This document shows, piece after piece, positions 23,357 through 58,848 of a DNA stretch of 64,000 nt (its first letter is position 1; every line of letters starts with the position of its first letter). Source of the stretch: Buxus sempervirens (Eukaryota > Streptophyta > Magnoliopsida > Buxales > Buxaceae); the NCBI GenBank assembly GCA_947561395.2, contig OX387182.1, positions 56,319,283-56,383,282 on the forward strand, written 5' to 3'. Made by a program: the position numbers and the translations under genes. The notes under the pieces were generated by a model, which was not told where the DNA came from, did not search any database, and saw only the letters and a list, made by a program, of their open reading frames with translations.

Positions 23357-23698
23357 CTTGTATAATTAAGTTAAATATGTTTGATCCTCTACTCAAACTT
23401 GTTGAGTCAAGGAAATATTAACAATATAAGTATTAATGGGCACCGGGCAGTTAGGAGATTTGCAATCTTTTAAATTTTCAAGGGGACTGGTCTGTTTTCC
23501 TTTATTATATAATAAAATAAGAAAATTATTAAATTATTATTAAAATTATATATCCAGGAAAATTGGGCTGGGCATCGTCAACATAACGGTTATGGGCTCT
23601 ATACAAGCCCATACCCAGCTCCCATCCAGGCTTTGTTAAAAGTAGACTTAAAAGTAATTAACCGGTTCCTTCTTCGTCTTATCGATAGAGAAGAGATA

Positions 23699-25312
23699 AT
23701 GGTGGAATTGTTCACAGCCACTGCTTACTACTTCACCTTCTTCCTCTCATCCATCCTTCTCTTCATCTCCGTCTTCATCTTCTTCGTCTCTTCTTCTTCT
23801 CGTTCTCGCAACACAACACCATGTCCCTCCTCATACCCTCTAATCGGAAACCTCATCGCCTTCCTCCGAAACCGTCACCGTTTCCACGACTGGATCGCCG
23901 AAATGCTCTCAGAAACCCCGTCAAGCACTCTCGAGGTCCGTGGATTTCTCGGCACCTCCCGCGGCATCTGCACCGCCAATCCCGAGAACGTCGAGCACCT
24001 CCTCCGCTCTAACTTCTCCAACTTCATCAAAGGCTCTCGCTTCCACGACGTCCTCTACGAGCTTCTTGGCGACGGAATCTTCAACGTCGACGGTGACCTG
24101 TGGACGTCCCAACGCAAGATCGCCAGTCATGAATTTAACACCAGATCACTTAAATCGTTCGTGGCTGATACTGTACAGTTCGAAATATCTGATCGCTTGC
24201 TTCCTTTTCTCTCTGATGCCTGTGACCAAGGAGAGGTAATAGATCTGCAGGAGATACTCAAAAGATTCGCATTCGATAACATTTGTAACCTTGCGTTCGG
24301 CGACGATCCGGACTGTTTGAGACTGTATAGCTCAACGAGTTCACCGAGTTCGAGATTCGTTCAAGCGTTCGATGACGCGGTGGAGATCAGTGGATCCAGA
24401 TACATGGCACCGCTGCCGCTGATCTGGAAGATCAAGAGATTTCTCAAAATCGGATCCGAGAAGCGGCTCAAAGAAGCAATACGCATCATCAACGACTACG
24501 CCATGGAGATCATCAGATCTAAAGAAGAAGAGAAACAAAATCATCAGAACTCCAATTCAAGTAAAGATCTGTTATCGAGATTCATGTCGTGCAATCAAAC
24601 TTTCGAATTTCAAGATCGAGAAGACCAGAGGAGGTTCTTGAGAGATATCATCGTAAGCTTCATCTTAGCCGGAAAGGACTCGACTTCGACGGCTCTCACA
24701 TGGTTCTTCTGGCTGATCTCGGCGAATCCTCGATGCGAGCGTCTGATCTGCGACGAATTATCCTCGTCGCCGGCGATCCGGTCGGGGATCTTCGGGTACG
24801 ATGATCTGAAGCCACTGCACTATCTCCATGCGGCAGTATCAGAGTCGCTGCGGCTGTTTCCTCCAGTACCGATCAATTCAAGATTAACAGTTAAGGATGA
24901 TGTGTTGCCCGATGGGACCCACGTGGGGCCAGGATGGTTTGCAGACTATTCAGCTTACGCTATGGGGAGGATGGAGAAGTTGTGGGGCCCGGATTGTAGG
25001 GAGTTTGTTCCGGAGAGGTGGTTGGACGGTGGCGGGGTGTATGTGCCGGCCGATCAGTTTCGGTTTCCGGTGTTTCACTGTGGGCCACGGATTTGTTTGG
25101 GAAGAGACATGGCTTATGTGCAGATGAAGTCGGTCGTGGCGTCCGTTTTGTATAATTATGAGGTTGTGCCTGTTGATTATGGTGGTGGTGATGTTGGCGG
25201 CGGTGGTGGTGGAGGGAGGATGACACAGCCTGGTTATAATTTATCCCTTGTTCTTAAGATGAAGGGAGGATTACGAGTTCGTGTGAGAAAGCGAAGCCAA
25301 AGCAGGCGATGA
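23699..25312 (+). CDS. Cytochrome P450 of the CYP94 family (CYP94C-like)
   Basis: This is a single-exon 537-aa P450 of clan 86. CYP94 enzymes are endoplasmic-reticulum omega-hydroxylases; CYP94B and CYP94C oxidise jasmonoyl-isoleucine and so damp jasmonate signalling. A hydrophobic N-terminal anchor spans residues about 8-33, followed by PCPSSYPLIGN. The I-helix motif AGKDST is at 324-329, ESLR (ExxR) at 382-385, PERW at 438-441 and the haem loop FHCGPRICLG at 459-468 with Cys466. WKIKRFLKIGSEKRLKEAI is typical of CYP94. I chose the ATG at 23699 because the membrane anchor follows it directly; an in-frame ATG at 23633 would add 22 unlikely residues. Near the C-terminus a GGT-rich stretch encodes a run of seven glycines, unusual for the family. 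Subfamily C rather than B or A is by resemblance only. Confidence 0.92.
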   Translation: MVELFTATAYYFTFFLSSILLFISVFIFFVSSSSRSRNTTPCPSSYPLIGNLIAFLRNRHRFHDWIAEMLSETPSSTLEVRGFLGTSRGICTANPENVEHLLRSNFSNFIKGSRFHDVLYELLGDGIFNVDGDLWTSQRKIASHEFNTRSLKSFVADTVQFEISDRLLPFLSDACDQGEVIDLQEILKRFAFDNICNLAFGDDPDCLRLYSSTSSPSSRFVQAFDDAVEISGSRYMAPLPLIWKIKRFLKIGSEKRLKEAIRIINDYAMEIIRSKEEEKQNHQNSNSSKDLLSRFMSCNQTFEFQDREDQRRFLRDIIVSFILAGKDSTSTALTWFFWLISANPRCERLICDELSSSPAIRSGIFGYDDLKPLHYLHAAVSESLRLFPPVPINSRLTVKDDVLPDGTHVGPGWFADYSAYAMGRMEKLWGPDCREFVPERWLDGGGVYVPADQFRFPVFHCGPRICLGRDMAYVQMKSVVASVLYNYEVVPVDYGGGDVGGGGGGGRMTQPGYNLSLVLKMKGGLRVRVRKRSQSRR

Positions 25313-25858
25313 TGCTATATATGATGGGGTTGGTGATGTATAAATGTATAATATAAGACATTCGGGTGATGCGTATGCGGCTCACCATGGGAGAGATATG
25401 ATTGGGTTAATCCAAACCGTCCATTTAACGTGGGACTTCTGGATTAAAACTTTGTTAGGTAAAATAATATATATATATATATAAAATGTTAGATTTGAGA
25501 AAAAGAGAAAAGAAAAAGGGAAAATAATTTACATATCTTCTTGGATAAGGTGAGAAATATAAAGAAAAGAAATTTTTTATTTTGATGATTTTAGATTTTT
25601 GTTTTATAAGATGAGAAATGTATAATAATTTAAGTTGGTAGAGTAAATGAAGTTGCATTTCCTTTAGTGGAGAAATCTTTTATTTTATTACAAGTTGACA
25701 ACTAGTAGGGTGCACGTGATGAGGAACAGTTACAAAACTTACAAAATTCCTTACACTTTTAAATGACACCCCTTTTTATTAATGATTCTTAACGTTTTGA
25801 GGAAATTACACATTACGCTTCGCACACTTCCCAAAGGGTCTTCTCCAGTTATATTTAA
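25313..25858. other. Region downstream of the P450
   Basis: AT-rich sequence with a short AT microsatellite (about 25469-25483). On the minus strand, GTGCACCCTACTAG ends near 25702 and is followed by T. It resembles the Helitron-type terminus at 25859 and may be a second end of the same family. No gene is seen. Confidence 0.4.
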
Positions 25859-26409
25859 CTAGTAGAGTGCACATGTAATACTGCACATATGTAATTCGGA
25901 AGTGGGTGGAATCCGTTTGCGACCATCTAATTTTGCAACCATGTAAGTTTATATCTCCTCCGTTGTACTTGGTCATTCCTGCTAATTAAACCTTGTCAAA
26001 CTGATTGTACACTTACCTCCTTAAAAGACTAATAGCAAAGTGATGGTCCTTACTATAACTGGAACAGTGCCAATTGCGATTCATACCTAATGGAAATTTG
26101 AGGTCAATGGATTGTTTGAATCTCTTGGTTATGCTGGTCAATATAAATCAAAAATTAATTTTCTAATTCATTCATCTATCAACCAAGTGATCCAATATCC
26201 CCAAAAAAGGATTAAAAAAAAATTCCGAGTAGTGGAAACCATTCTACATAGAAAGAGACATCTACTGAAAAACAAAAGGAAAAACAAAACAAAGAACAAT
26301 CTACAAAGGCTGGATGGCAAACTTTTAATGTAAAGAAAACAAATGCTTAACAATTACAGAGACACACTTAAAACAACTTTTCCATGTTAGAAGTATCTCG
26401 AGTCTGCCA

Positions 26410-26537
26410 TTTTCAACTTCCTTTTTGCAAGTCAGCTTGAGAGGGAATCAATACGAAACATCTCTTAACTTGCAAGAGGTTGGCTTCCCCATGTTTCCAT
26501 CTTGTCTCCTGACTTTTTAGAAGTGCTAATGATGCTG
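26410..26537 (-). pseudogene. Orphan exon of unknown gene
   Basis: After a good acceptor (GTGTTTGCAG, 26538) the minus strand reads ASLALLKSQETRWKHGEANL, then about 20 further codons to a TGA near 26411. The composition and acceptor look genuine. It needs one preceding base from an upstream exon that I cannot identify. I do not recognise the family. It lies within the candidate Helitron and may be a captured 3' exon. Confidence 0.3.
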
Positions 26538-26684
26538 CAAACACATTTGCAAGAGATTATATACATGACTTAGCCATCACCATGAAACAAAAGCCGTGGC
26601 ACAAAGTATGGCACTTTGGAACCAAATGCATGAAATTAGATCAAATGAAGCTTAAAATGGATCAGAAAGTATATCTTGAGCACC

Positions 26685-27170
26685 CCTATAACTCATCGTC
26701 ATCAAAGTTATAAAATTCAGCATCTGCAAAAATAAGACATGCATCAAAGAATATTTTTGCATAACTGTTTTCACAAAAGATTAATGGAAAAATGAAATGC
26801 CAATTAACCCTAATTGTAGAACCACGTATTGTCATCCATTTTAAATTTAAAGGCATCTTGAGTGATATTTTTCATCTAAAGCATCAAGCTTAGTTTGGAC
26901 TCTCTAAAATGTATACTTTGGTCAATTGTGTGGGCACAATATTGTGCTTGCAAATCCACTTGTGCGTTCCTGTGTAACAATTAAAGAAATAAGCCACACC
27001 CAATCGAAGATGGCTGATTAGTTAAGGTGCAACCATAATTTAATTAATAAAGAAACCTGTCACTATCATAAAGAATGACAACATCTGCAGTGGCAAGATT
27101 GCAACCAAACATGCACGGTCTCTGGTTCATCTTTCAAGGCAAAGACCTTTCCTTTGCATTGATGGATCCT
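26685..27170 (-). pseudogene. ISWI chromatin remodeler (CHR11/CHR17-type) exon relics
   Basis: Three exon pieces are in ISWI order. About 27160-27057 reads FGCNLATADVVILYDSD, matching helicase motif V/VI flank GINLATADVVILYDSD. 26969-26830 starts after TTACACAG and reads NAQVDLQAQYCAHTIDQ (ancestral WNPQVDLQAQDRAHRIGQ), then after a stop TQDAFKFKMDD. 26723-26685 starts after TTTTTGCAG and reads AEFYNFDDDE. The phase-2 intron splitting the W codon of YDSDW is kept, so this is a genomic copy and not a retrocopy. Decay includes an in-frame stop, an internal deletion between the helicase end and the FKMDD region, an Arg-to-Thr change in RAHRIGQ, and loss of the donor after FKMDD (GT to AT at 26829). 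Confidence 0.75.
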
Positions 27171-27739
27171 TGCAGCTTACCCAACATGTAATGGCAAGGA
27201 GTTATATCGGCCAAGAATAGTAGCAAGAGGTTTTCGAGACAAAGAACACAATTGCATATCGTTTCTCACTTGTATTTGGTATAATGTTGTAGTAATCCCA
27301 CGCTCACATATTCTGCACCTCGTTTGAATAGAGAAAATAGAAATATATGCACACTTAAATCAGACCATCCATAAGGATAGTTCAATTTCTAAACTGAACC
27401 AAACCTTTTGGAACCAAATTTTGATTTGTAGTATACACGTTGGTTTGGTTTTCGGTTTTTTTTTTTAATAAAGACTGAACTGAAGCTGAACAGCTACATA
27501 CAGCTCTCTAAATGCAATGGGGGGATTGCTTAACCCAGCGGGAAGCTGTTGGCGACGAACCATTACCTAACATATGTAACTATTTATGTTACAACGAGCA
27601 TGAAGATTAGAACAGAAATTCCACTGTTACTCAAAAATCCTATGTAGTAGAAGTTGGGGTAATCTTAAGCATCTATCTGGCTTTTATTGAAAGGGCAGCA
27701 ATAAATTCCGTGAACTTTGGTTGTGGTTAAAATTTATTT

Positions 27740-28400
27740 ATCAATGATGATTTCATTTGGTGCTAAGTAATTTCGTAGGTTAACACAACAAAATTTATAA
27801 CAGATGGTTTTATTTGGTGCTAAACAATTTATGAAACTGTTTTTAGATTGTGAATATTGGTTAAGAGTTATTAATGTATTTCTTTGGGATGTAATATTTC
27901 AAAATATCCAATACAAACAAAAAGGACAAATTAAATCTTAGGTTACCTCAACAGACTTTGGTGGTTCTCAGTTATAAAAGTTTTTTTTTTGGGTGTAAAT
28001 TTGGTTGTGTAGCAGTATTTTTTCTTAAGCAATGTCTTAGGTTAACAAAACCAAGTGCATCACAGATGCTTTTATTTGGTGCTAAACAATTAAAGAAACA
28101 GTTCCTAGCTCATGAAAGTTGTTTATGGGTTGTGCTCGGTTGCTGTCGAAATATAAGACCAACAGAACCTTGGTCATATCAAGTCTTAGGTCTTTCACAA
28201 CCAAATTATGTACTCCTCATTTGTCAATTAATCTTTGCTAATTTCTTTTCCATAGCAGTTCATGGTTTGTAAGTAATTTCCTAGATTACCACCACCAAGT
28301 TTATCAAGGATGGTTTCATTTGGTGCTAAACAATTGAGAAAAATCTTCTTAGCATGTGAATGTTGGTTGTGGGATTTTATGATTGTATGTCCTTGAGATT
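27740..28400. repeat. Diverged tandem repeats with TTTGGTGCTAA core
   Basis: The phrase TTTGGTGCTAARYAATTT recurs at about 27756, 27813, 28075 and 28319. Each time it follows GGATGGTTTC-like sequence and precedes GAAA and CTAGCATGTGAA-like sequence. Spacings are 57, 262 and 244 bp. The array lies within the candidate Helitron. Confidence 0.65.
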
Positions 28401-28997
28401 TAGTGGTTTAAAATAACCATTACAATCAAAAGGAACAGAAAAATAAGACGACGGTGCAATATAGAAATAGCGTGAATTGGTACGCTGAGCATAAAAAAGA
28501 ATAGTAGTACAACACTAAGAATGATGTATAAGCAAGGTACAAATTTTGTTAGCTTGATTTTCCAACAATAGCATGACGTGGCACAAAGTAAATAAAAGAG
28601 TTATAAATCTGGTGTACGTGTCCAATATCAATGGTTGATGAGAAGCAAAGGTACTCTCATGTGAGTAGAAGTGAGGAAGGATGAAGGTAAATAAGAAATG
28701 CAGGGGAATTGGGAAAAGTCTTGATAGATGTTCCTCCTAAGCATAGACTTGGCTTTTCAAATAATAACCCATATATATATGTAGTTTAACTGGTGGGTGA
28801 ACACTTGGGTGGGCTATGCATAAAGCGGAAGCGCAATTTTGAATAACCCTCTAGGTTACAAACGTGTCCAAGCCAGTAACTTTGTTTTCAAACTGGATAT
28901 GGAAGTTCACGATATAAAGACAGATGATGAGGGAAGTCGTCATCCTCTTGTTTAAAGTAGAAAGTGGGCTGGCAAATCAAAAGTTTACATGACGGGG

Positions 28998-29430
28998 TGA
29001 TGCACTATTTTCATGGTTGGATTGAAGAGATATTGGTGTGTAACTGAGATCAGTTTGTTGGTGCTGGATCCCAAAGGAATTCATGTATAGGATTTTAAAA
29101 TCTATATTATATATGGGAAAATGAACACATTCTATGACATTGGACTGAAGAGATCACCTCAGGGAGATATGCACTATTGGTGTGGAAATGAGATGGGGTT
29201 GTTGGTGCTGGAATTCCCAGTGTATACATCTATAGAATATTGAAGTCCTATATTGAACAAATGAAATGGAAATTGAACACAATCTATGACTTTGGCCTGA
29301 AGAGATCACATCACGAGGTTATGCACTATTTGGTGTGGAAATGAGATGGGGTTGTTGGTGCTGGAAGCCCAATTGAAGACATGTATAGAATATAAAAATT
29401 CTATATTGAAAAAATGAAAATGTGAGAAAT
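28998..29430. repeat. Tandem repeat of about 150 bp
   Basis: The phrase GAAGAGATCACVTCA with TGCACTATTTGGTGTGGAAA and GGGGTTGTTGGTGCTGGA recurs with starts near 29024, 29148 and 29299 (spacings 124 and 151 bp). The first copy is the most diverged. Confidence 0.7.
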
Positions 29431-29810
29431 GCCAGTGACTTTGGACTGATCAAGGTTTGAAAATTTTAAGGATGCTGTCAATCAAATGCAGCAGTGGGTA
29501 GACATTAGCAATTCAACAAACAGTGGGTAGGTCTTACCAAAAAAACAAACAGTGGGTTGACATTAGCTCCTAATAAAGTTTAAAGAAGGCAGTTTGTGAA
29601 TAAGAAGGACATCCTATATTAAATAAAAGAAAATTTGAGAACCACAGTGACTTTGGACTAATCAAGGCAAGAAAAATTTAAGGATGCTGTCAAACGAATG
29701 CGTCAGATATATTACATATGATATTTTTTAGCATTTCAACCAATAGTGGGTAGACATTAGCTCCTAAAAAACTTTAAAGAAAGCAGTTCGTGCATAAGAA
29801 GAACTGGCTG
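29430..29810. repeat. Two copies of a 200-bp unit
   Basis: The phrase GTGACTTTGGACTRATCAAG followed by TTTAAGGATGCTGTCAA occurs near 29432 and 29647. GTGGGTAGACATTAGCTCCTA and TTTAAAGAARGCAGTTYGTG also recur. This is a separate unit from the neighbouring 150-bp array. Confidence 0.65.
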
Positions 29811-30023
29811 TCTACAAGAATTACAATACACGTGCAGTAATGTGAGTGCATCACATCTATAATTATTCAAAACTTGGGGATTAAGATGTAAAGTTACGGA
29901 TGGGGAGAAGGGGTTGGGGTAGGTGCACGACAGGAATCAAGATGTAGATTAATGAGAAGAAAATAAAATAAAATGAGCAGAATCTGAATATTGATGAAAA
30001 TAAAGCGGGTTGTTGAAGTGTAC

Positions 30024-30212
30024 CTTGAATTTTGAGAAGGAGATGAGACTCTCTTTCCAGCGAGGTGGATTGTCGGAGGTGGAAACAATATTGCCTTGGA
30101 TAAGAACAGGATCAAATGGCTGAATGTGATGCAACTCCTTCGTGTAGGCGATGGTGTCTCGAAAATCGTATGCATTGTGAGAAACCGAAAGCAAAAGGGT
30201 GGATGAATCCAT
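30024..30212 (-). pseudogene. Orphan first exon of unknown gene
   Basis: An ATG at 30212 opens 63 codons ending in KFK at a good donor (CAAG|GTACAC, 30023). The peptide starts MDSSTLLLSVSHNAYDFRD and contains HHIQPFDPVLIQGNIV. No later exon in phase 0 could be identified with confidence. I do not recognise the family. It lies 260 bp inside the 5' end of the candidate Helitron, so a captured first exon is plausible. Confidence 0.35.
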
Positions 30213-30353
30213 GAGAAGGGGAAGTGAGCGGAAGCGGTTTGTAACTGCCGGGATTTTGAATGGAGGTGCTAAGTGGTGGATGAATCCATGGGGGAGGGGA
30301 AGTGAGTGGGAGCAGTTTGTAACTGCCGGGATTTTGAATGGAGGTGCTAAGTT
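30200..30353. repeat. Tandem duplication, 2 x 77 bp
   Basis: Copies 30200-30276 and 30277-30353 both begin TGGATGAATCCATG and end GGAGGTGCTAAGT, with a handful of differences. The duplication takes in the start codon and upstream sequence of the orphan exon at 30024-30212. Confidence 0.8.
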
Positions 30354-30594
30354 TGGATGGGTAAATCCCTGTATTAGTCAAACCTAGACAGCGTAGGAAA
30401 TGTGCATTTTTGGGATACATTGTTTTAGGCACACTTACGGGCGCCTCGCTTTTTATATATATATATAGTAGAGATATAAATATAGATATGGATGTGAAGC
30501 CCGAAATCTATCCAACAGTGTGAGAAATGACATGTTTTCACTTTTCACCTCTTGTATTTGTCATTAACCTACAATCCATAAGGTTTCGAATAAT

Positions 30595-45989: not shown

Positions 45990-47084
45990 AATCCTTCAAT
46001 CTGAATAAGTCAATCATGCTTTATTTCTAGTGTAGTCTCTAAAGAGTGGATGCTTATGTAGTAGTGGTTAGGGCAAAGAGCATTTCGATTTTAAGTTGTG
46101 ATTGCAGTGTCTGTCAAACTTCGCTGTGCTAATTAATCATCCTCTGTTTTTCAATAATCCTTATCTTCCTCATCTAGCTTCTATTAGACATGGATGGTCT
46201 GTTTGGTGATGATTCATAGAAGGGTCTTTCAGGCATTTCAACCAATCGATTAGACCTTGTAGGGTGGTGGCTTTTGAGTCATTTATCTGAATTCCTGAAT
46301 TCTACTGTGATCTTCATTAGTCTTAAATCAAGCAATGCTTGAGGATGCTGATTCCTCAATTTGGAGAATCAATGCCAATCCTGTATTACATAATCAGGAC
46401 CCATTGATATGTTAGTCATCTTTCTTGGCATGACTGATTGTTAGCTTTAAACCGCCTTTGATGCAATGAAACGAGTTTTAAGATAAGTCATCTTTTAAAG
46501 CATGACTGATTGTTGGCTTCGAACTGGATTTTCTTCGGATGGAAGGACGTAGGTCTGTGAAATAGAAAGTAGTGTACTTCAAATGAACATGGCAGCAGAG
46601 ATGGAGAAATCATAATAGATAGGAGTAACTACATTAATGTGTTTTGTGCAGGAAGGGCAAAAGCTGCCAATTTTTTCCATAATGGAATGGCATACAACAG
46701 TAAAATCATCATCAAGTATAATTCATGCTTGTTTAGGGCTAGATCCCCTTTATTCCTCTTCATAAAGCCGTGAAATAGAAGGGGAAATCTTCAAAATGGT
46801 GAATTGGTCTAAAGATGTAGAATTTGGTTTGAAATAATACCTTTAGTTGACATGAATTTTTCACTCCCAGTCCTGGCCAAGAAAGTGATATCTCCTGAAT
46901 CAATTCCAATAACCTGCTTCTTTTCCAGAACATATTTACTGATTCCCCCTCCATCAGATACACGGAAGCTCACCCAGATACCTCAAAAAACTGTAGCAAG
47001 GAGTATTATCGACAATCTTACCACAAATGAAATAATAAATATTGACCCAAATTAATTAGAACATCTTGGTTTCCTACCCAAAAG
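45990..47084. other. Annexin B 3' flank
   Basis: Homologous to 35520-36380 of copy A, with one extra stretch around 46310-46530. No gene seen. Confidence 0.6.
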
Positions 47085-49717
47085 ATTTGGTTTTTCTTCC
47101 AAATGGTGTTCTCTCATTCTTGCATGCATTTCGAATTGTTGGTTCAGCATTCTTATTAATGGTTCCTCATCGGGGTTCTTTAAGTCTTTAACAGGATTGC
47201 GTCAAGGGGATCCTCTTTCTCCCTTGCTGTTTATTATTGCTGAGGAGGTGTTTAGTAGGGGTTTATCTAATCTTGTTATTACTGGGAAGATTGGTCCTTA
47301 TAACGCTGGTAGGAATGGGTTATGTATTTCTCATCTTCTTTATGCGGATGACATATTGGTTTTCATGAGTGGCAAAAGATCTTCTATAAGAAATCTATTG
47401 GACTTCATTGCTCTCTATGAATCGGCTTCAGGTCAGAAAGTTAATTGTTCCAAAAGCTCCTTTTTTGCCCCAAAACATCTCAGTCATGCTCGTTTGGATA
47501 TTTTAGCTAATGCTACTGGATTTTCTCAAGATTTTTTTCCATCACTTTATTTGGGAGTTCCTTTGTTCATTGGTCGTGCTTCATCAAGTCTTTTTGAAGG
47601 TCTTGTTGCTAAGGTTCAGAAGAAAGTTAGTGGTTGGAAGGCAAGGCTTCTCTCTGCTGGAGCTTAGGTCACTTTGTTACAAAGTGTCCTCTCTAGTGTT
47701 CCCATCCATTCTATGGCTTCTATTCCCATTCCGAAGGCTATTATTAAGAGACTGGATTCCATTTTTTCTAATTTCTTTTGGGGTGAAAATTCTGACTGTG
47801 GTCTCAAGAAGCATTGGGTGGCTTGGAATTCTATCTGTCTTCTTAAAGAGGAGGGAGGATTAGGCATAAGAGCCATTCATGAAGTTATGTCTAGTTTGCA
47901 CATTAAAATGGGTTGGAGACTTTTGATCGATCAAGGAATTTGGGCTACATTTATGCGTAACAAGTATTGTAGCAGAGTTCCTTTTCATGAAGCTGATTTT
48001 AGGCAATCCTCTTCTAAGGTTTGGAGGGCTATTATTAAAGTTAAGGAGCATATTATGCATAATATGGGATTTGTTCTTGGTAAAGGTCATATCAGGTTCT
48101 GGAAAGAATTCTGGACACCATTTGGTATTCTGGAAGATTATGTGGATAGTAATCTTATTTCTAATCCTGAGATGAAGGTTTTTGAAGCTTTTGAGGTTAC
48201 TGGTGCTTTGAAGGAGCAGGTCATTATCCCTAATCTTCCTCCTCATATACATACTTTCCTTGAATCCTTGAATTTTGACTTTTGTGAAAACGAAGATCAA
48301 TTGGTTTGGTTTGCAAATCCTAGTGGCATATGTACTGTTAATTCCGCTTGGCAGCATATTAGAACAAGAAATGCGACTTCGGAGTTATTTGCCAATTGCT
48401 GGAAAAATTTTGTCCCTTCTAAAATCTGTGTTTTTCTTTGGGAAGTTCTGAAAGGTGCTGTTCCTACTGATGATTTGGTTAAACGAACATGTATATCTTT
48501 ATGCTCTAAATGTCATTGTTGTACTTCTTCTGCTCAAGAGACTTTGAATCATTTATTTGCTCATGGGGATATTGCTCAAGAGGTTTGGAAAGTTTTTGGG
48601 AATAGGTTTCAGCTCCAGCATCACCCTTTTCACGATGCCAAATCTCGGGTTGGATTTTGGCTTAATCAGTCAAGGCATCTGGATCATTTTAGCATTCTTT
48701 CAAAAGTGGTTCCTCACTTTATTTTATGGGAATTATGGAAAGCTAGATGTAATGCAAGATATGACAACTCTCCAATGATTCTCACTAACATTGTTCTTAA
48801 TGTCAAGAGGTGGCTACAAGAGATTTCTATGATAATCAAGCTTGCTGTTTCTTGCTCCTTTGATAGGGCAATTTGCTTGGAAAGTATGAATATTTTCATG
48901 CCTTCTATTGCTAGAAGACATCACAAGATAGTGAGATGGTATAATTTTAGGGAACATTCTTTTGTTCTTAATACTGATGGAGCCTCTAAAGGTAACCCGG
49001 GAATTAGTGGAGGTGGGGCAGTTATAAGATCCTCCAATGGTGATTTTTTGGTTGGCTATTCAGATTTTTATGGTTATGCTACTAATACCATGGCTGAAAT
49101 CTTGTCGTTAAGAGATGGTCTAAGATTGGTGGACAGCTTGGGCATTCAAGGTATATGCATTGAAAGTGATTCTAAGTTTCTTGTGGACAGCTTCATCAAT
49201 AAAAAAAGGTATCCCCTGGCTATCCCCTGGCAACACCAATTCAGCTGGAGAGAAATTGCTACTAGAATAAACAAATTTAACAGGACTTTCAAGCATGTCT
49301 ATAGGGAAGCAAATTCTGTGGCTGATTCTTTGGCCAATGAAGGTTGTTCTAGACAAGAGAGCCGCACTTTTAATTCTGTCTCTAGTCTTCCTCATGCGGT
49401 TAAAATTGCTCTTTTTGATGATAAAACTTATTTGTATCACTTTAGGAAATAGTTTTGAGCTTTCTCTTTACTGTTTTGCTCCCATTTTGGTTGAGGTGTA
49501 TTTGGTTGAGGTTTGGTGTTCATACCTCTTGCTGGTTTTTACTGTCTTCTTGATTTTTAGTAAGGTAAGGTTGAATGTCCCCCCTATTTGGTGTATTTCT
49601 CTTCTGGCTTTGATTTTAATCTACAGGTCGGGGTCTGCCTCAACCCTCCTCCCTCCGATGGAGTGCCACTAAGGTTTTTCCTCCTTTAGTGGGTTTTTTC
49701 AAAAAAAAAAAAAAAAA
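47085..49717 (+). mobile_element. 5'-truncated L1-type LINE
   Basis: The frame from 47086 enters in the middle of the reverse transcriptase and reads GLRQGDPLSPLLFIIAEEV and the catalytic LLYADDILVF. A TAG at 47665-47667 then interrupts it. The frame resumes at once and continues to 49452 with SNFFWG, KICVFLWEVLKGAVPTDD, a Cys-rich zf-RVT region and a C-terminal RNase H (TDGASKGNPGISGGGAVI, MAEILSLRDGL, IESDSK). A 3' UTR and 17-bp poly(A) follow (49701-49717). The endonuclease and the first part of the reverse transcriptase are missing. No clear target duplication is seen; comparison with copy A suggests a small deletion at the site. Confidence 0.9.
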
Positions 49718-50932: not shown

Positions 50933-51669
50933 TTACAAAATCAAGTCAATGTTTGATCAATCAAAATGTTTAAAATATTTATCTCATTCCATTTTTCATT
51001 TCTAATAAATTTAAGAATAAGTGAAAGCATTATAACTTTTTGTACCTAAATTAATATATCAGGTACTTTATGAATCTTGTCAGCAAATTAAATGGTACTT
51101 TCTTCAAGTTTCACATGTCAGCAAGGAATAAAGCAGTTAGATAGTTTAAGAACTGTTTCAAGTAGCTAATATATATTGGCCCAGTCTTGCCGGTTCATAC
51201 CAACATGAAAGGGAAAGGTAGAGTCCTAAGGTTGCATTACAAAAAGGAAAATGAAATTTGAAGAACACTACAGACCATCAGTACAGTCTCATCCAGATTG
51301 GTATGACCAATCTGTAGTGGGCAACATTTTCAGAGTTCAAAACAAGTTGTGTTTCCAAGTGTAACAGTAAATGCTAATACATAGTTACCAATTAGTTCCT
51401 GTACAGTAAAACAGATTAAACATTTTCAAGCTTTAAAACCGAATACTTTTGCGTCAATAATCACTTTTTGTATTATTAGGATACTATATATTGCTTGATC
51501 TTGATTAAGTAAGAATGATGGTAAAATTTATATATACAGGAGAATTTTTCCTCATTTAATTAAGAACCTCGTGAAAAAACAAAGTTGATGATCTCGGAAA
51601 TCTTATGGGGGAAGGATATGCTTATTTCCAAACCAAACTCAGTTGGCTGGCGAGAAAATTCCTTTTTGG

Positions 51670-53687
51670 GGAATAAGGAGCATATCGATGAATTGGGGAT
51701 TCCTAATCCTAAATTACAAAAGGGAGTCCTTTGAATCCACAGATGAAGCTAAGGAAACAGCAACAATTGAGGATCTACGACCCCACACAAATATCAAAAG
51801 GCTCTTTGTTAAATGGTACTATGGTACAACATTCCCAAGCTGGTTGGGTTGTTCGTCCTATGCACAGTTGGAAAACTTAAAACTCATTGCTTGTAGAAGA
51901 TGCCGGTTACTCCCTTCCCTTGGATGTTTACCCTCCCTCAGGTATCTCCTAATTGAGGACTTGTGGGGAGTAAAAATTGTGGGTGCTGAGTTCTATGGAA
52001 GTGTTAAACTGTTTCCATCACTAGAGAAATTGGTATTCAGAGGTATGAGGGATTAGGAAGAATGGCTTGGGATTGAAGAAGAACATGAAGAAGTATTCCC
52101 TCGTCTCTATGAGCTTGTGATATCTAATTGTCCTTGTTGGGAAAATGTATTTCCCCATGTGACAAATTGCATGACAAAGCTTATTGAAACTTATTAAAAA
52201 TTTTGTTAGTTGATTGAATGTAAATGAGAAGTATCAAATGAATGATGAAGGAATAAAATGAAGTTTGTTGAATGTGTGGGTTTAGATTTCTATTAGCAGG
52301 GTTATGTGTAACCTGCTGTAGCTACATAACCAACTGAAATCTCAGACAGTTACAAGAGTCAGTTGAGTTGTTGCAAGGTTGTTAAAGTTTGTTGAGGCAG
52401 TTATCAAGGCTGTTAAAACCTCTGATTTAAAATGAGTCTTGGAGGTTTTTGGAAGCTGATTTTTTTACCAGGAGAACTTGGTGAAGAGTTGGGCTAGAGA
52501 AGATCAGTGAAGAGAGGTTGCTGGAGAGTTCTTGAAGGCTGAGAAAGACTTGAGAACAGCAACATTCCAGATCTGGAGAAGGACTGGAATGGGCAATCTG
52601 ATCTACTACACAGTGTTCGTGTGAAGTTTTGAAGCTGTTGAAAAGTGGGAAGATCAATTCCTTGAAGAAAGAGGTTGTGGAATCAACCTTGAGTGTGAGT
52701 CTCTATAATTGTTGTAGTTTCTTTTAATTCTGAACAATTTGTAAAGATCTTTTCAGCTTAATGCAATGTTTTTAAGGCTTGGTCTTCCTCAAAAAGACCT
52801 GAGGTTTTACCTAGGTGATCTAGGGTTTCCTCGTTAAAAGTGTGTGTCTCTTTACTGTTCTTTTGTTCTTTGCTAGTTTGCTCTTTACTTGTTTTTAGAT
52901 TCCTAGAGAACAGGGACCTGAGATTAGAAATCTCAGTCCTCAACTACGGAAGTTCTCCCACCAATTTGTAATGCTAGAGAAATTGAAAATACAGAATTGT
53001 CCAAAATTTGTTGCACTACCAAGGTGCCTTTTGGTGCTCTATAGATTAGAGGTAAAGAAATGTGATGCGATGGTCTTGAGAAGCGTGGTAGACTCTGATC
53101 CTCCACCACTTAGCTGCTTGATTATTTCTAGAATTTTGATTCTCGAGAATCTATTAATACCTCTTGAAGAAGAAGGAAGGTCATTGTTGGGATACTTAAA
53201 TTCATTGGAAGAATTAGAGATTGAAGAATGTAGTGAGCTTGTGAAGTTGTCGTCAAATGGGGTCGGACGAGGAACGCAATGCCTTGCATCTCTTCGTACT
53301 CTGAGGATATCCCAGTGTCCTCAACTTGTGTGCTTGTCAGATGATGAATATTTGCTACCCTTGCAGTCTCTTACTGATTTGCGGATCAATTCATGTCCAC
53401 GTCTTCACATTCGCAAACTCAATTCCAAGCTTGAATTTGTTTGGATTAGTTCTTGCGGCACATTGAACATTCGGATGATGAACTGCACTTCTCTTAAAGG
53501 ATTAGTAATGTATGACTTGCCAGATTTGGTAAGCATGGAAGGAAAGATAGAGTTTCCTTTGACACTCAAAGACATTTATATCCTGAAGTGCCCCACTTTG
53601 GAGACCTTTCCTGCACAGATGATGCACAATAGTAACAACAGCAAAATGCGGATCTCTAACATCATTTACAACAAGTGGTTCTTCTAG
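51670..53687 (+). pseudogene. NLR (CNL-type) resistance gene, LRR end, disrupted
   Basis: NLR proteins are intracellular immune receptors. The frame begins at the end of duplication copy B and reads LRPHTNIKRLFVKWYYGTTF, PSWLGCSSYAQLENLKLIAC, LLPSLGCLPSLRYLLIEDL and FPSLEKLVFRGM, typical C-terminal leucine-rich repeats of coiled-coil NLRs. A TAG at 52054-52056 replaces the Trp of MRDWEEW. A solo LTR is inserted at 52135-52935. Beyond it the repeats continue in the same frame (LEKLKIQNCPKFVALPRC, LEELEIEECSELVKL, LASLRTLRISQCPQLVCL) to a stop at 53687. No NB-ARC or coiled-coil domain is present in the window. Confidence 0.85.
52135..52935. mobile_element. Solo LTR (801 bp) inside the NLR
   Basis: It begins TGTTGGGAAAATG and ends GATTAGAAATCTCA. 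Flanked by a perfect 5-bp duplication GTCCT (52130-52134 and 52936-52940). TG...CA ends and 5-bp duplications define an LTR retrotransposon. Only one LTR is present, so internal sequence was lost by LTR recombination. A related copy lies at 61483-62309. Confidence 0.9.
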
Positions 53688-57545: not shown

Positions 57546-58848
57546 TTAGAGGGAAGATATGGTCTGGACAGTGCTTAAGACGAGAACAAAGATTCCAGCA
57601 AGAAACGCGATGACTGTCCATGGGGTACTGAAATATTTGTGCAGCCATTCAGTCATCCAGTTTGTGCATTTGTTCTTGTATATCTTCGATCTCAATGCCT
57701 TCTGCTACTTTTGCGTAGGTTAAAGGATGTGGCATCAACCCATTAGCAATCTCATTGAACCACTTGGCCACTTCTTCATCGCTGCCGAGCCAGTTTTGAA
57801 CTATGCCTTCTGATCTAAGCTCCTTCACATCACTTGGAAGATCAATGAGTTTATCCATGAAACAGATGTAAGAGGTAATCCCATAATCATCAGGAGTATC
57901 AGGACATGCTTCATAGGCAATCATGTTCAAGAACCTGGCCTTGCTTGAACCATCAATGATTACTGGAGGGAGCCTCAATGTTCCAGAAATGATGCCTGGT
58001 TTTAAGCTAATGTCATTAATACACGGAGTCTTGCTCTTCTTGAACTTAATACCTGCAGTTTGAAGCTCCTTCACCGATCACCGATCAAAAGGTTTGATCC
58101 CTCAATGTTCGAAAGGTTTGCCCACCGGCACCTACCTGAGGAGAATCAGTAGTTGAACTCCTTCCAAGGAGCTGAGTTCTCACAAGTTCAAGAAGATGAA
58201 GAGGTTCAGCACCTGACTCCTCAGAATCGGACTCTAGGGCCCTAATTCGCAACTTGATAAAAGCCTTAAGGCCCTTAACCATGGCAATCCCTCCATCTTC
58301 AGGAAATTTCAAGCTCATTAGAGCCTGAAGAACTACAAAGGGGAGTTGGTTCTCCAGCAAGATCAAGTCCCTTCCTACAGAGGGAATGTGGTGTAACTTC
58401 ATTTTTATGCCTTCGACATTGTTGTTCATTATGCAATTAATAAAATGCAGAATGAAACAACCATCAAGGAACATCATACGCACGAATTCTTTGTCACTGA
58501 ACTGAGTTGTAGAATCTGCAGTGTAGCACCCTCTTGCATTGCTGGACACTGCTGCAACACTGTTGTAGAAGGCATCAATATAATGTTTTTGTTGCTGCTG
58601 TCTTGCACGAATTGTCGCACAGTTGGAATCTTGATCTTCTCTGTTAGCTGGAGCTCAGGCTTTCCATGGTGGTAAGGACCGATGGAAAATATCATGGGAT
58701 CAAAACAATTGTCCTTGTTGTGGAGATCTCGCAGCATCTTAGGAACCAGCTGTATCTTGGGCTTTGGCTCCTCCCCTCCATCCTGCATTATAGAAATTAA
58801 CCACTCTTTGTCGTTGCTGGTACCGAAACTTGTACTGCCTTTTTTTGT
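57546..58848 (-). pseudogene. DUF247 (UPF0481) family protein, three frame breaks
   Basis: DUF247 (PF03140) proteins are plant membrane-associated proteins, mostly of unknown role; in grasses two act in self-incompatibility. The minus strand reads IQLVPKMLRDLHNKDNCFDP, MIFSIGPYHHGKPEL, then FVRMMFLDGCFILHFI, DLILLENQLPFVVLQAL, LRLPPVIIDGS, RFLNMIAYEACP, and a C-terminal membrane helix FSTPWTVIAFLAGIFVLVLS with stop at 57546. Frame breaks lie near 58585 (before DAFYNSVAAVSSNARGC), at 58072-58085 (a 7-bp tandem duplication CACCGATCACCGAT) and near 57655 (before NWMTEWLHKY). The upstream end runs into repeat block beta, and no proper start codon is evident. Confidence 0.85.

Follow-up and report, generated by a model that had tools for sequence, protein, structure and literature searches.

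How does a piece of an ISWI chromatin-remodeling gene, with its introns still in place, come to lie between the ends of a transposon? The question is raised by a 64,000-nucleotide stretch of Buxus sempervirens contig OX387182.1, here called the window, in which the initial annotation proposed a Helitron that had captured ISWI exons together with parts of several other genes. We believe that the segment at 25859..30474, 4616 bp read from 30474 to 25859 on the minus strand and flanked by A(30475) and T(25858), is almost certainly a non-autonomous Helitron into which a piece of ISWI was copied and which spread to several sites in the genome. The proposal of captured ISWI exons is strongly supported by the copies, the donor, the terminus counts, the pairing of ends and the empty sites. 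Capture of gene pieces by plant Helitrons is already well known, and the present case is a clean but ordinary one. The element and its termini are:

25859..30474, minus strand: whole putative non-autonomous Helitron (copies, terminus counts, empty sites)
30439..30474, minus strand: 5' terminus TCTCTACTATATATATATATAAAAAGCGAGGCGCCC (same subtype elsewhere and genome-wide matches)
25859..25894, minus strand: 3' terminus, a decayed hairpin and CTAG (copy alignment, terminus pattern search, folding)

Both termini lie where the initial annotation had put them, and both are of the canonical plant type, with TC at the 5' end and CTRR at the 3' end. On the minus strand, A(30475) is followed at the 5' junction by T(30474)CTCTACTATATATA, and at the 3' junction ...CTCTACTA G(25859) is followed by T(25858); read through, the ends run from A(30475) and TCTCTACTATATATA... 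to ...CTCTACTAG(25859) and T(25858). The genome, 676.5 Mb and a plant's by its gene content, was searched with a 3' terminus pattern allowing up to 2 mismatches and a 5' pattern allowing up to 3, with the reversed patterns as controls. It holds 208 matches to the 3' pattern, 475 to the 5' pattern and 0 to either control, counts that are far above chance. The two ends also occur together: among the matches listed (100 per terminus), scored on the same strand and within 20 kb, 17 pairs of 5' and 3' ends stand in the correct order and 0 in the wrong order, with 3 on opposite strands.

The site into which the element inserted can be recognized from its two flanks:

30475..30486, minus strand: first 12 bp of the target mini-Helitron (TCTATATTTATA), the flank on the other side of the insert
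25702..25858, minus strand: body and 3' end of the target mini-Helitron (CCCTACTAG followed by T), with six uninterrupted relatives (L069-L074)

The insert interrupts an older mini-Helitron of about 169 bp (30486-30475 plus 25858-25702), 12 bases in from its 5' end. Queried with the two flanks joined, the genome returned 42 rows, six of which (L069-L074) run through the junction; all six are uninterrupted small elements ending in CTAG followed by T, and five of them, all except L071, start with TC preceded by A. These related sites, which are paralogous and not orthologous, cross the junction insert-free and show an insertion between A and T that left no target duplication. They also identify the second terminus, near 25702, as the end of the older mini-Helitron. 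The initial annotation had allowed that this terminus might be an alternative end or a second element; the latter is right, in that the insertion struck an older mini-Helitron, and 25702 as an alternative end of the ISWI-bearing element is rejected because the six uninterrupted relatives own that end. Further tandem Helitron ends are present at L069 and L073, and the upstream flank contains, at 30668-30595, a short dispersed repeat that is matched by 33 rows of the joined-flank search and by eye resembles a short interspersed nuclear element.

A genome search with the whole 4616-bp element returned at least 111 matches, and 20 matching regions (L009-L028) were taken for comparison with the window. 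Besides the window, four (L009-L012, A-type) are long colinear copies, L012 being interrupted; L013-L017 (B-type) have the ISWI region and/or the 3' part in common with the window and different middles; L018-L023 have the 3' block, whole or partial, without ISWI; and L024-L028 have the 5' and middle parts as in the window, again without ISWI. The 3' end aligns in 19 of these 21 sequences (the stretches analyzed for L025 and L026 end short of it), reading CTAG in 17 and CTAA in two (L021, L024), and the next base is T in all 19, in flanks that differ. L010 (C22) and L011 (C21) are distinguished by 11 of 4437 sites, yet their 3' flanks are unlike, which argues for movement of the ISWI-bearing family that is recent by comparison with its own age; the window copy diverges from L009-L011 by 0.066-0.078. 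Two more non-autonomous-looking Helitron groups, L026-L028 and L022-L023, have members about 96-98% alike over kilobases, suggesting that several Helitron lineages moved recently.

The ISWI-derived sequence lies at 27108-26682, introns retained, in three pieces:

26917..27108, minus strand: ISWI piece 1, exon end ...NLATADVVILYDSD, intron and next exon start (QVDLQAQ); 85.4% to C22:27779984-27780182
26889..26919, minus strand: ISWI piece 2, 31 bp from a donor intron (by eye); 90.6% to C22:27780237-27780268
26682..26893, minus strand: ISWI piece 3, exon end (DAFKFKMDD), intron and next exon start (AEFYNFDDDE); 86.2% to C22:27780720-27780934

The SLIDE-domain family (PF09111), which we take to be a mark of ISWI, matched one place in the genome, on C22, in two stretches. 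The donor pieces lie there 1.7-3.1 kb upstream of the SLIDE domain and on its strand, at 85-91%, in order and with introns included. Alignment with the species' own gene, which the initial annotation had suggested, thus yields a donor elsewhere in the genome, presumably a CHR11/CHR17-type ISWI gene, whose exons are open as far as they were read. By sequence, the three pieces appear to be a single internal capture of C22:27779984-27780934 (951 bp) followed by two internal deletions, with about 54 bp and 451 bp of donor sequence lost; short identities (CCAAA, CTAAG-like, TTGGT and GGGGT) were recognized by eye at the joins. Pieces of the donor segment occur in nine of the 20 regions compared (L009-L017). 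The window copy diverges from the donor by 0.121 over 402 sites, and seven others (L009-L014, L016) by 0.105-0.117. The ISWI-like frames of the window copy hold stops, so a functional ISWI protein is not expected.

Retained introns and pieces in the order of the gene would also fit an ordinary segmental or tandem ISWI duplicate that decayed to a pseudogene. To this explanation we assign practically no probability: the share of the donor is only 951 bp, with Helitron sequence on both sides; the captured stretch starts at the same donor position, 27779984, in L009-L016, eight of the nine further loci with ISWI (L017 has 60 bp only); and the flanks of the insert join into an uninterrupted mini-Helitron. 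On the strength of the breakpoint that the copies share and of the empty sites, ordinary duplication is rejected. Another route would be 3' end bypass, in which ISWI was gained by read-through past the terminus and 25702 became the new end, as the second CTAG followed by T, 157 bp downstream, might suggest. We regard bypass as very improbable, because ISWI is internal to the element and is followed by a 3' block that non-ISWI relatives possess as well; the terminus at 25702 is that of a distinct, older mini-Helitron, which has a 5' end too; and other ISWI-bearing loci have different sequence after the 3' end, L012 adjoining another mini-Helitron body. The remaining parts of the element are:

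25931..26685, minus strand: Helitron 3' block that predates the ISWI capture (present in non-ISWI loci)
27120..27244, minus strand: 125-bp multicopy piece, origin not traced (nine further loci at 79-91%)
27250..27327, minus strand: remnant of an internal exon-like stretch of the autonomous Helitron (matches near Rep at five loci)
27334..27461, minus strand: dispersed short repeat, apparently like a miniature inverted-repeat transposable element (MITE) (genome search)
30024..30212, minus strand: exon remnant of the Helitron's own gene (MDSSTLLL...SKFK, then GT) (32 protein matches, position near Rep)

The 3' block at 26685-25931, whole or partial, occurs in L018-L023 and L056-L060, and no ISWI was found there; a degenerate 3' end is still recognizable in L058 and L060, and there is none in the stretch read for L056, L057 and L059. 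The position of ISWI between Helitron-derived blocks favors internal capture, and the join upstream of ISWI may be to another captured piece, as the 125-bp piece at 27244-27120 adjoins it. Genome searches for the source of these two blocks, with a Pfam search of the 3' block, found none, and Pfam searches of nine open reading frames of relatives and of the 3' block gave nothing over the curated cut-off. In a cousin element, L015:1174-1512 is a possible CAND6/7-type fragment (CAND6/7 N-terminal Pfam E 0.003, below the curated cut-off).

The family to which the element belongs also has Rep-bearing members. Helitron_like_N (PF14214) has 142 matches in the genome, several in open frames of >1000 aa; among the 72 of these listed, a same-strand 3' terminus lies within 10 kb downstream in 9, upstream in 0 and on the opposite strand in 1. 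Two elements, one of 12.8 kb on C21 and one of 13.2 kb on C4, unite a Rep domain with the 3' end and the window's 5' subtype, and are autonomous-type relatives with the same ends. On C3, L052 has separate open pieces with motifs that we take to be Rep- and helicase-like, the latter read in L052 only, and a 3' end decayed to CTAT. The exon at 30212-30024, for whose peptide Pfam returned 0 families, gave 32 protein matches genome-wide, a count that takes in the window and in which some loci figure twice. In L053-L055 it stands about 0.6 kb inside a TCTATACTATAT-type Helitron 5' end and 4.3-4.6 kb upstream of a same-strand Rep match, and its peptide there reads MNSYTILLPSSPNIYDF.DDTTY.K(E/K)A...; this position identifies it as the Helitron's own exon, and the view that it is a captured host gene is rejected. 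Matches to the block at 27327-27250 lie about 2.2-2.5 kb upstream of Rep on C21, C1, C4 (two) and C8, two of these five loci (L075, L076) having been read directly. The claim that parts of several genes were captured is supported here for ISWI, the sole host gene traced, and not for the two orphan exons of the initial annotation: the first is the Helitron's own, and the second, an exon-like stretch within 26685-25931, belongs to a block common to Helitron 3' halves without ISWI, an older Helitron sequence whose ultimate origin was not traced.

Whether other copies share both ends, which the initial annotation had named as a check and as a possible refutation, has a divided answer. The 25859 end is present in all nine other ISWI-bearing loci; the exact 30474 subtype is present only in non-ISWI relatives, Rep-bearing ones included. 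Among the regions compared, that subtype recurs in L019, L022 and L025-L028 (in L025 after T, not A), and no ISWI was found in the relatives that have it. Remnants of a TCTATACTATATTTAAAGGG-type 5' end persist in L009 and L010, no 5' end lies in the sequence read for L011 and L012, L011 being without the first ~40 bp, and just inside the 5' end the window and the other A-type copies have GTGTGCCTAAAACAATG in common. The window's subtype is unlike all located 5' ends of ISWI-bearing copies, which suggests a swapped terminus, with the first ~40 bp of the window's 5' end swapped in later. The surroundings of other copies bear on how such a swap might arise. Three of the 19 aligned 3' ends (window, L012 and L020) adjoin a mini-Helitron body, as recognized by eye; at L012 (C19) and L020 (C6) a small Helitron 5' part, again by eye, lies directly downstream of the 3' end. 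Helitron 3' ends set against the TA-rich 5' ends of other Helitrons hint at an insertion preference. It is conceivable, though we think it rather unlikely, that Helitrons of this family insert repeatedly into TA-rich 5' termini, that the resulting tandem ends permit a 5' swap, and that the ISWI carrier took the 5' end of another subfamily and possibly the helper as well.

A larger exchange can be envisaged as well, one that would add to the capture by a non-autonomous Helitron and not exclude it: the 5' half (30474 to about 27340) and the 3' half (27333-25859) may derive from two Helitron lineages. L013-L015 match the window from 27333/27329 on only, with an extra 5' piece in L016, L024-L028 have 30459-27518 without ISWI, and the B layout does not form one group in a tree built from 13 selected rows (window, L009-L018, L022, L023). 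However, L024-L028 are mostly 65-86% like the window, and so are old relatives and not parents; the 27333 boundary coincides with the MITE-like repeat, which among ISWI-bearing loci is found only in the five A-type copies, window included; and the relevant forks of the tree are weak (88/90, 66/89). We consider such a chimera quite possible, if on balance somewhat doubtful. The ten ISWI-bearing rows make up one side of a branch of the same tree at 100/99.

Several observations weigh against the reading of the segment as a non-autonomous Helitron that captured ISWI and spread. The window's 5' subtype is absent from all four of the further A-type copies (L009-L012), L014-L016 carry a different one, and the 5' end was not located in L013 and L017; a single group of A-type layout has support of only 66/89. 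The short hairpin that had been placed before the 25859 end is decayed in the window copy (DNA fold -3.5 kcal/mol, z -0.43); a 36-base form entered by hand as typical of its relatives folds at -7.7 (z -2.22). The tie to the Rep-bearing elements consists of the ends plus weakly similar exons (64-65% in L053-L055), and the Rep matches of L053-L055 contain stops, for which decay or introns are possible reasons. The Rep-linked 3' ends at L061-L063 match the window over 48-54 bp only, L064 does not match at that threshold, and within the first ~0.87 kb of the C21 element the similarity to the window is confined to 21 bp. Finally, the case is known from sequence alone, with neither transposition nor transcript observed.

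Overall, the history that we propose for this non-autonomous Helitron begins with an element composed mostly of the decayed remains of a family whose Rep-bearing members persist in the genome. An internal ISWI segment was taken up by copying, probably through repair or template switching and not end bypass, with the two internal losses coming afterwards. Multiplication would most likely have depended on a Rep-helicase supplied in trans, presumably with rolling-circle movement by these proteins. The window copy landed between A and T in the older mini-Helitron, and the start of its 5' end would have been exchanged later.

Other features of the window lie outside the element. At 23516-25309, some hundreds of bases away from the target mini-Helitron, is a long open frame for a cytochrome P450 (PF00067, E 5.1e-56); frames for reverse transcriptase and RNase H at 47056-49449 are probably of the long interspersed nuclear element type; and 51592-53684 and 57652-58654 hold leucine-rich-repeat resistance-gene pieces and a DUF247 gene split across two frames.

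Comparable systems are known. Maize Helitrons, as described by Dong et al. 2011 (PMC3288121), captured gene fragments stepwise, and nested Helitrons among them give extra 3' termini. The Buxus element resembles them in beginning with TC and ending in CTRR, in its A-T insertion site, in a 3' hairpin, decayed though it is in the window copy, and in captured gene fragments, and likewise in having related elements with differing fragment sets and nested elements with extra 3' ends; it differs in plant, donor gene and terminus sequences, and in that maize elements are reported to carry zero to nine gene fragments, whereas one host gene was traced here. The wheat Xuan-Feng family (PMC13286980) is similarly non-autonomous, with TC...CTAG ends, AT insertion, a transposase-bearing relative and a hairpin near the 3' end, which in the window copy is decayed, but its movement was observed. 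The self-inserted FoHeli of Fusarium oxysporum (PMC5148889) has non-canonical, Helitron2-like ends, unlike the canonical A-T Helitrons described here. Literature searched for Helitron and ISWI together yielded no paper on ISWI capture by a Helitron.

What this locus offers is a nearly complete case within one genome, in which the donor, the breakpoints, copies with and without the capture, uninterrupted targets and Rep-bearing elements with the same ends can all be set side by side. The Helitron-derived blocks that flank ISWI favor, for this event, internal capture by repair or template switching over end bypass. For those annotating this genome there is also a warning, in that ISWI-like exons may be transposon cargo.

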